Source: Rhododendron vialii (Eukaryota; Streptophyta; Magnoliopsida; Ericales; Ericaceae). Taken from it: a stretch of DNA of 64,000 nucleotides. Both the position numbers and the translations under genes were made by a program. The stretch's first letter is position 1, and every line of letters begins with the position of its first letter. The stretch spans positions 6,678,501-6,742,500 of the forward strand of contig NC_080564.1 of the NCBI RefSeq assembly GCF_030253575.1, given 5' to 3'. This document shows, piece after piece, positions 32,642 through 35,406 of this stretch. The notes below the pieces were generated by a model. That model was not told the DNA's origin, made no database searches, and worked only from the letters and a program-made list of their open reading frames with translations.

Positions 32642-35406
32642 ATGAAATCTATGTCCACAGTCTCCATTTTGACCATCTTTGCACTATCCCTTTCACCACT
32701 TCCATGTTTTGCAGGAGATTTCCTTTACCTTGTCCTACAGGTATGTGATTTTTATGAGTCTTTAGAATATTACTATCTAGATTGCCTTTCCTTTACCTTG
32801 TCCTGCACAGACCATACGCGGGCAGTCATAGTTGGCATAGAACCAGTCTACTGGCACAGCAAATCTGTGCACAGATTGGGCACAGCAAATCTGTGCACAG
32901 ATTTTTATGTGGAGCCCACTACAGGTCCCACACAAGTGATTCGAGCCGTTCATTATGTTGAAAACATTTTTTCAAGGGCCTCCGCGAAAAAATCAGCTCA
33001 ATCCGATACCTATAAGTGCTTGATTTAATCGTCTAACTTTTCATTCAAGTTTTTAGAAAATATCAGTTCAATCCGATACCTATAAGTGCTTGATTTAATC
33101 GTCTAATTTTTCATTCAAGTTTTTAGAAAATGAAAAGTTAGACGATTAGATCAAGTACTTATAGGTATTGGATTGAGCTAATTTTTTGCGGTGACCCTAA
33201 AAAAATGTTTTAAACATAATAAACGGCTCAGATCACTTGTGTGGGACCCTTAGTGGGCCCCACGTAGAAATCTGTGCACAGATTTGCTGTGCTAGTAGAC
33301 TTTCTGGTTGGCATAAGCCCGCCGCCCTAAAGGGGTCTCCAGCGTGCAAGGACTCTCTTGCACCACCTCATATCTCTGCCGGATGAACATTAACTTTCCT
33401 AGTTCTACGGGAACTTCTAATCCCTAGGATTAGGATTTAGGATGCACAGTGCCGACTCTGATGTGTGAGTTGCCCAAGCAAAACCTTAAACTTGGTTACC
33501 CACTCACTAAAGTAACAAAAAAATATAAAGACATACAAGTCAAAAAAAAAAAAAATCAAGGTTCCATTGTGTGTTTAGCTTGAATTACAAGGGTGTTCAA
33601 GATTGCGTTTCGAATGACTGTGCAATTCAGTCCCTTGTTTTGGTACATATCACGTAAATTTTTATTTTTATTTTTATAAGTCAAATTTGATTACAAGAAA
33701 TTAAACAGGTCTATCCTTCATAAGGAGGATTTTGAGCCCAGACGGAATACAACCTGGATTAAAACTAGAAGCTCTATCTATACAATTTGTTGCTAACAAG
33801 TGAGCCACACTGTTTTGCTCCCTAGAAACCCAAACAAAAACCCAGGTCCTTTGAGAAGCCCAGATCTTGATGTCCTCCACAACTGCTATCTCCCACGGGC
33901 ACTGCTCCACCTTTTTGTTAAGACAGTCAATCACAATTCGATAATCTGATTCAAAAACTGCTTTATCAATTCCCAAATCAATTGCCATCCCACAGGCAAT
34001 ACGCAAAGCCCAGGCTTCCGTCACCAATGCTGAAGAAGCCACAATTCTGCCTGCTCTATAGTATTGCATCACTCCACCACTATCTCTCGCTAAACAACCA
34101 AAGGCAGCCAAGTTGCGGGAAGAGGAAAACGCTCCATCATAGTTGAATTTAACAAACGGGGGGGGGGGGTTTGTGCGGCATTCCTTCAATCTTTTACTAA
34201 GCCTTTTAGGGTTGCAGTGGCCGGGGTCGTACTGTAGCACAAAGCATGGCTGTTGCTTCCCGAAGAATGGAAAACCTGCAAATGATTTCACCATTGCTGG
34301 ACTGTGGCCCTGCTACTTGAATGCCACTATCCCTCAGTTCTGCAATTCTCATAGCCAGCTCAACTTAGCCAAGGTACTTTAAATTTTTTATCACCATCTT
34401 AATTTGGATGTACTAGAATTAAAATCTATGCCGTGATAACATAGGAATAGCTAATCAACTTGTCAGAAATCAAAATAAGACCCTCTCATTGCCAATTTTT
34501 CAGGATTAATTGAGCGACGATGGTACAATGTTGATCATTTTAGTATTTTTTTTGCCACCCGCACTGGCGCCTTCAAATTCTGTCCTGTACGTTTATGGTG
34601 GAGTTTGTAATGCGAAATTGACATATGTTGTTAGAATATCTAAGGTAGATTCGTACAAGATACTCATGCGCGCACGCATCGCACAGAACACACGGAGTTT
34701 GGCCTTAAGCCGCCTTACAAGATTTGTGTCTACATTTATACGATGTACACAGTACCTGAGAATTGAACCATCGGTCTAACGGCGTCTCCATTGGAGATAA
34801 TGCATGGTAAATATTATCTCTAGTCCTTATCCCCAGCTAGCTACAATATTAATCATCATTGTTGGAATGTAAAATTTTATGAGGCAGGCCTCAAACCTAA
34901 CCAAAAGCCTGCAAGTAAATTGGGTCTCGCTTGCCTGCCCAAGCAGTGATGGATTGAGTCTGTGGGCCCGTGAATGGCAGCAGCATGGGACATGCTCAGG
35001 CCTCAACCAACTTGACTACTTTGAGGCAGCTCTCAGACTTAAGAAGCAAGTCAACCTCCTTAAAACACTCAACAATGCAGGTAATTAATTAAGCTGACTG
35101 ATTATTACTCTTGTTAGTATCTTGTTAGCTTTTCACAAGACCCACAACCCTTTTTTTTTTCCTTTCTCCATAGGAATCCAACCAAATGGGAGGTTTTACA
35201 AGACAGGCGCAGTGGTGGAGGAGACCATACGAAAGGCAGTCGGGTATATGCCAGGGTTATGGTGCAATGAGGACAAATCGGGGAACCGTCAGCTCTATCA
35301 AGTAGTCATGTGTGGCGACTTTGCTGGAAACAGGATCATAGACTGTCCAGGGATCCCAACGGGGAAGGGGGAGTGCGCTGCGTCTATCAAGTTTCCTCCA
35401 TTCTAA
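32642..35406 (+). CDS. Ribonuclease T2 family protein lacking the first catalytic His
   Basis: Four exons: 32642-32740, 34218-34373, 34888-35080 and 35174-35406, with GT-AG introns and consistent phases, giving 226 residues (normal S-like RNase size). A signal peptide (MKSMSTVSILTIFALSLSPL) is followed by FLYLVLQWPGSYC. The first active-site block, normally FTIHGLWP, is FTIAGLWP, so the catalytic His is Ala60. The second block is EWQQHGTC and keeps Glu114 and His118, although the usual Lys is Gln. The family Cys positions and the C-terminal region (LYQVVMCGDF to FPPF) look intact. T2 enzymes need both His residues to cleave RNA, so this protein is probably secreted but inactive as an RNase. 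Inactive T2 relatives are known as storage or defence proteins. Intron 1 (1.5 kb) carries a MULE-like MITE and an antisense LINE fragment. Confidence 0.9.
32840..33306. mobile_element. MULE-like MITE in RNase T2 intron 1
   Basis: 467 bp flanked by a perfect 9-bp duplication gttggcata (32831-32839 and 33307-33315). The inverted ends share gtctactggcacagcaaatc / gtctactagcacagcaaatc. Inside, a gcacagcaaatctgtgcaca unit is doubled at the left end. A segment starting tcaatccgatacctataagt occurs twice in direct order and once inverted. No coding capacity. The host intron's splice sites are untouched. Confidence 0.88.
33657..34190 (-). mobile_element. LINE fragment with RNase H domain, antisense in RNase T2 intron 1
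   Basis: On the minus strand an open frame encodes an RNase H domain: FVKFNYDGAFSSSRNLAAFG, then ARDSGGVMQYYRAG, TEAWALRIACGMAIDLGI, ESDYRIVIDCLN and WVSREQNSVAHLLA. The acidic residues of YDGAF, TEAWAL and ESDY, and the late SREQN/AH motif, are kept. Plant L1-type LINEs carry this RVT_3-type RNase H downstream of reverse transcriptase. The 3' end is a (TAAAAA)n tail (33657-33676). Reverse transcriptase is absent, so this is a 5'-truncated copy. The frame runs on to 34294 only because the antisense of RNase T2 exon 2 happens to be open. Still open, so possibly a fairly recent insertion. Confidence 0.82.

Follow-up and report, generated by a model that had tools for sequence, protein, structure and literature searches.

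A putative class I S-like ribonuclease T2 of Rhododendron vialii with replaced catalytic residues and a conserved cysteine frame

Introduction

A survey of 711 plant T2 sequences recorded 91 that were inactive or without an essential conserved histidine (PMC5598434). Class I accounted for 67 of these, in nine clades, class II for 3 and class III for 21 (PMC5598434). The criterion is worded in two ways in that survey, with the CAS II histidine named in its methods and one or both histidines in its discussion (PMC5598434). The inactive class I proteins described there fall, among others, in a Caryophyllales clade and in a grass clade that holds the 'monocot inactive cluster', to which rice OsRNS4 and OsRNS5 belong; for the Caryophyllales group the survey states that virtually nothing is known of expression or function (PMC5598434). 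Nine acidic-to-basic shifts were also reported in class I, seven of them with loss of an active histidine, and a functional shift was suggested (PMC5598434).

Roles have been reported for several T2 proteins of this kind or related to it. OsRNS4, from the inactive cluster, is described as expressed in the leaf blade and as rising under phosphate starvation, and it has been tied to the responses to salt and ABA (PMC7793952). CalsepRRP of Calystegia sepium is thought to serve protein storage (PMC5520845, PMC5598434), and proteins annotated as the ginseng ribonuclease-like storage protein (GMP) top the root-transcript table for American ginseng (PMC3751939 Table 3). For human RNASET2, tumour suppression was reported regardless of catalytic activity (PMC3248199).

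The enzymes used for comparison are RNase NW and RNase NGR3 of Nicotiana glutinosa, the latter called NT in PMC9762611, and RNase LE of tomato (PDB 1iyb, 1vcz/1vd1 and 1dix). The catalytic residues listed for RNase LE are His39, Trp42, His92, Glu93, Lys96 and His97 (PMC9762611).

Gene structure

The T2 gene was located at 32642-35406 on the forward strand of the window, which is the whole 64-kb stretch of DNA analysed. Its four exons join to 681 nt with a single open frame, encoding 226 aa. Exon 1 (32642..32740) begins with MKSMSTVSILTIFALSLSPLPCFAG, which resembles a signal peptide as judged by eye, followed by the first residues of the T2 domain. Exon 2 (34218..34373) carries the CAS I block FTIAGLWPC, which starts at residue 57, exon 3 (34888..35080) carries the CAS II block WAREWQQHGTC, and exon 4 (35174..35406) encodes the C-terminal part and the stop codon. 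Two N-glycosylation sequons, N68 and N88, are present in the protein.

All three introns are of the GT-AG type and the frame is intact across them, in agreement with the claim of the sequence-only reading that the splice sites were kept. They lie at 32741..34217 (1477 nt, phase 0), 34374..34887 (514 nt, phase 0) and 35081..35173 (93 nt, phase 1), with the phases derived from exon lengths, and were compared with class I by number only. Three is the commonest intron number in class I, against eight in class II, and the class I pattern I-D has three introns at positions 2, 5 and 9 with conserved phases (PMC5598434). The acceptor of intron 2, ATGTAAAATTTTATGAGGCAG, looks weak by eye, with no clear pyrimidine tract and a second AG 4 bases upstream.

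A TATA-like element (TATATAA, 32594..32600, forward strand) is a candidate core promoter 48 nt before the ATG; it came from a pattern scan of the 242 nt 5' of the ATG and is a match to consensus only.

Intron 1 and other features of the window

Intron 1 contains transposable-element sequence. A MITE-like element with inverted repeats was observed at 32840-33306 (32831-33315 with its duplications), flanked by perfect 9-bp target duplications, GTTGGCATA. Target duplications of 9 bp are typical of Mutator-like elements. An antisense ORF at 33701-34312, mostly within intron 1 and overlapping exon 2 with its first codons, was matched by Pfam RVT_3 (E 4e-19) and is probably a retroelement-derived fragment. 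An A/T-rich stretch was seen by eye near 33660, on the 3' side of this ORF, and a second copy of the ORF was not found within the 64-kb window. In addition, a stretch from the 3' end of exon 1 (32719-32739) recurs at 95% identity in the 21 nt at 32787-32807, 68 nt further downstream in intron 1.

Two copies of GNATATNC, which we take to be the consensus of a phosphate-starvation element, lie in the 1 kb preceding the T2 gene, at 31807 and 32443. In the whole window 23 such sites were counted, against a shuffle mean of 14, a count reached by 1 of 100 shuffles. Because the window as a whole holds 23 sites where 14 are expected, the upstream pair was given little weight.

Pfam matches identified ORFs for a ZF-HD dimerisation region (17884-18213), a PPR protein with E motif (28083-29675), a Dof zinc finger (41777-43048) and a RING finger (54722-55441), and a tRNA-Leu(CAG) lies at 4623-4704. 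From the ZF-HD, E-motif PPR and Dof matches together with the class I T2 gene, the host was taken to be a land plant. The 239-aa product of the ORF at 50482-51198 looks hydrophobic in places by eye; Pfam gave nothing for it at E 0.001, and it is possibly a single-exon gene of unassigned family. An F-box model was matched by none of the eight long ORFs scanned, in a 64-kb window for which 25 unspliced ORFs of at least 110 aa were listed.

Family assignment

The protein belongs to the T2 family by a whole-domain match above the curated cut-off (Pfam Ribonuclease_T2, PF00445, E 5.8e-47, 160.7 bits against a cut-off of 26, profile positions 2-188 of 188). At E 0.001 no NCBIfam family was found for it. 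RNase NW was matched in PDB with E 5.6e-67, and with such values the Pfam and PDB matches to T2 proteins are far beyond chance.

The best three of the 16 PDB sequences listed were RNase NW (229 bits), NGR3 (220.5 bits) and LE (209.6 bits), and the next among those listed was RNase MC, with 80.9 bits; a second ranking used a profile to which NW, NGR3 and LE had themselves contributed, and it leans toward those three. Identity of the mature protein in the alignment was 51.0% to NW, 49.2% to NGR3 and 50.0% to LE. By its closest sequences among solved structures, the protein would be a plant class I S-like RNase. Descent from CalsepRRP (class II) was rejected, with E 2.2e-17 for 1jy5 against 5.6e-67 for RNase NW, and so was descent from S-RNases (class III), with 63.2 bits for 1iqq and 60.7 bits for 1ioo against 229 for NW.

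A tblastn search of the 64-kb window for a second T2 copy gave the gene's own exons and otherwise weak matches, with E 2.2 or more. T2 relatives were confirmed for none of 89 pattern stretches in the prokaryotic genome_contigs and none of 61 in viral_contigs, and the plasmids collection gave one weak bacterial match (32% over 58% of the query); these collections cover prokaryotes, viruses and plasmids, and misses there are uninformative about plants.

Catalytic and RNA-contact residues

The conserved FTIHGLWP block had been read as FTIAGLWP, two base changes from a histidine, and this substitution is present in the sequence. Ala60 (GCT, 34296..34298, forward strand) stands where NW, NGR3 and LE have the first catalytic histidine (His39 of RNase LE), and at least two base changes separate it from a His codon. 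EWQQHGTC is likewise present, with Gln117 (34981-34983) in place of the block-II lysine and Cys65 (34311-34313) in place of the Asn after LWP, as had been described. The second histidine was correctly said to be kept, as His118 (34984-34986), but the other block-II histidine, which lies in WSHEW of NW, NGR3 and LE, is Arg113 here (CGT, 34969-34971); this had been overlooked, and the loss was understated.

In comparison with RNase LE, three of the six catalytic residues differ (Ala60 stands for His39, Arg113 for His92 and Gln117 for Lys96) and three are kept (Trp42, Glu93 as Glu114 and His97 as His118), whereas NW, NGR3 and LE have all six of those listed. Judged by its CAS I and CAS II residues, the protein would not qualify as an active T2 enzyme and probably cannot cut RNA. 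With half of the catalytic residues gone, the earlier suggestion of a probably secreted non-enzymatic protein is supported.

The base sites were altered as well. Three of the five listed B1 positions are changed (Asn44 to Cys65, Tyr50 to Ile71 and Tyr175 to Val194), with Trp in NGR3 at the Tyr50 site, and the B2 position Phe89 is Leu110. The protein still has the equivalents of RNase LE Tyr17 and Gln12. A set of 16 catalytic and base-contact positions was compared, being the union of the residues shown for LE, NW and NT and omitting a few contacts named for single nucleotide complexes (PMC9762611); 8 are identical to LE, 1 to NGR3 only, and 7 are unlike all three enzymes. The seven changed RNA-handling codons require a minimum of 12 base changes, at least two each in five of them. 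RNA binding through the old site, which had been proposed as one possible new role, is weakened because the base-site residues were also replaced.

Cysteines, conservation and charge

All ten cysteines common to NW, NGR3 and LE are conserved, so the kept pattern that had been reported stands, with the addition of Cys65 beyond the pattern. Since Cys65 raises the total in the presumed mature protein to 11, one cysteine is probably unpaired.

Among 114 positions invariant in NW, NGR3 and LE, 79 are kept and 35 are changed, the changes being scattered along the protein. The cysteines were kept in 10 of 10 cases, and the RNA-handling positions that are invariant in the three enzymes in 8 of 14 (Fisher P 0.024); this comparison was picked after the alignment was seen. 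Losses were not enriched at RNA-handling positions, with 8 of 14 kept there against 71 of 100 at the other invariant positions (Fisher P 0.36). From this value and the retention of the cysteines, the contrast is therefore chiefly between the disulphide frame and everything else.

The mature protein is basic, with a computed pI of 8.75 against 4.93 for NW, 5.12 for NGR3 and 4.54 for LE, and a net charge of +6 against -8, -10 and -11, respectively. When RNase NW was made to drift at random to 51% identity, the mean charge was +2.3 (sd 5.5), and +6 or more was reached in 429 of 1500 runs, for which reason the basic pI was rejected as evidence of selection. The charge fits the published pattern and by itself shows no selection, because drift may produce such a value; the simulation also means that a shift to basic pI after the loss of catalysis need not mean a new function. 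Catalytic histidine loss and basic pI together would place the protein in the inactive class I group, a placement to be taken with caution on two counts: drift can yield a charge of this size, and the criterion in the survey's methods is the CAS II histidine (PMC5598434), which this protein retains as His118.

Decay or constraint after the loss of catalysis

A neutral model was run with a rate taken from the six catalytic codons (at least 4 base changes over 18 nt), and a run was scored as intact when it had no stop, ten intact cysteines, and untouched start and splice dinucleotides. The probability of this outcome was 0.0010 with rate uncertainty and 0.0188 at the lower rate bound, under a model which omits indels, an omission favouring neutrality, and which assumes that every change came after loss of function. 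At the point-estimate rate, 0 of 6000 runs stayed intact. An intact frame with ten cysteines was improbable at the rate from the six catalytic codons or from all 16. The change at the His92 site may have come before the loss, because the Nicotiana S-RNase 1IOO has Tyr at that site (PMC9762611 table). The result favours constraint after the loss of catalysis and does not prove it.

The best explanation would probably be that the product of this gene is a secreted T2 protein of the class I S-like type which has lost catalysis and was retained for a non-enzymatic purpose as a folded, basic protein with its disulphide bonds; our confidence in this is somewhat above even. The intact frame and GT-AG introns are accompanied here by T2 homology, catalytic and base-contact replacements, ten cysteines and a basic computed pI. 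Under this explanation the gene would be transcribed and translated, its product secreted, and the locus maintained by selection. By analogy with OsRNS4 and CalsepRRP, its role might be guessed to be stress-responsive or of the storage type, in an extracellular or vacuolar location.

The gene could instead be a young pseudogene, a recently silenced or decaying paralogue in which catalysis is no longer under constraint but the frame is still unbroken, which we consider unlikely, though it deserves serious weight. The protein-wide spread of the 35 changes among 114 positions fixed in the three enzymes would suit such decay, as would the weak look of the intron 2 acceptor and the presence of the MITE-like element and the antisense RVT_3 ORF in intron 1, and an intact frame is expected after little drift, with a probability of no stop of 0.649 after 10 substitutions. 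Against decay, the replaced RNA-handling codons need at least 12 base changes, five of seven needing at least two; at rates taken from six or 16 codons, an intact frame with ten cysteines is improbable; and the element insertions are intronic, leaving the exon sequence unbroken. Of the two outcomes offered earlier, a new role is moderately supported over very recent loss, as the simple neutral model is disfavoured.

A more specific proposal, that the old active site was rebuilt, is improbable in our view. Ala60, Cys65, Ile71, Leu110, Arg113 and Gln117 would then line a pocket, in what was the RNA cleft, that offers an unpaired thiol and an arginine. The product would be basic and secreted and would act by binding or by forming dimers, perhaps as a ligand trap or a disulphide-linked scaffold, and not as a passive storage protein.

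Weak RNase activity with altered chemistry might be retained through His118 and Glu114, and the presence of residues equivalent to His97, Glu93, Trp42, Tyr17 and Gln12 of RNase LE would allow for it. We regard this as highly improbable, with those equivalent to His39, His92, Lys96, Asn44 and Tyr175 replaced, and with plant T2 proteins lacking an essential histidine inferred to be inactive in the published survey (PMC5598434). That the Ala codon came from a sequencing or assembly error or a wrong exon choice can hardly be true. Although the sequence was seen in one copy only, codon 60 has two adjacent changes, a different exon carries those at Arg113 and Gln117, and the frame and the RNase NW alignment are continuous through both blocks.

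Comparison with known inactive T2 proteins

The preferred reading, a retained non-enzymatic class I protein, has close parallels among plants. Novelty is not supported, since plants have yielded many records of such proteins (PMC5598434, PMC5520845). Class I assignment, loss of a conserved histidine and a shift to basic pI would be shared by this protein and the inactive class I proteins described in those reports and for OsRNS4 (PMC5598434, PMC5520845, PMC7793952).

In rice AK109411 an alanine, Ala67, lies to judge by its number at the same CAS I site as Ala60 here; this protein also has Ser125 for the second histidine and Ala121 for the glutamate, both of which are kept in the present protein (PMC5520845). 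CalsepRRP (1jy5) has lost one essential histidine, which is Lys70 and by number lies in CAS I (PMC5520845), but it is placed in class II (PMC5598434) and is far more distant from the present protein than RNase NW. GMP is another plant T2 relative without RNase activity; it differs from the present protein in being of class III and in having its catalytic histidine intact (PMC5598434).

Loss of catalytic residues in plant T2 proteins is thus of an already known kind, and the gene described here is another apparent case. It would represent a plant secreted RNase gene that has outlived its catalytic residues, with an extra cysteine at an old base-binding position.
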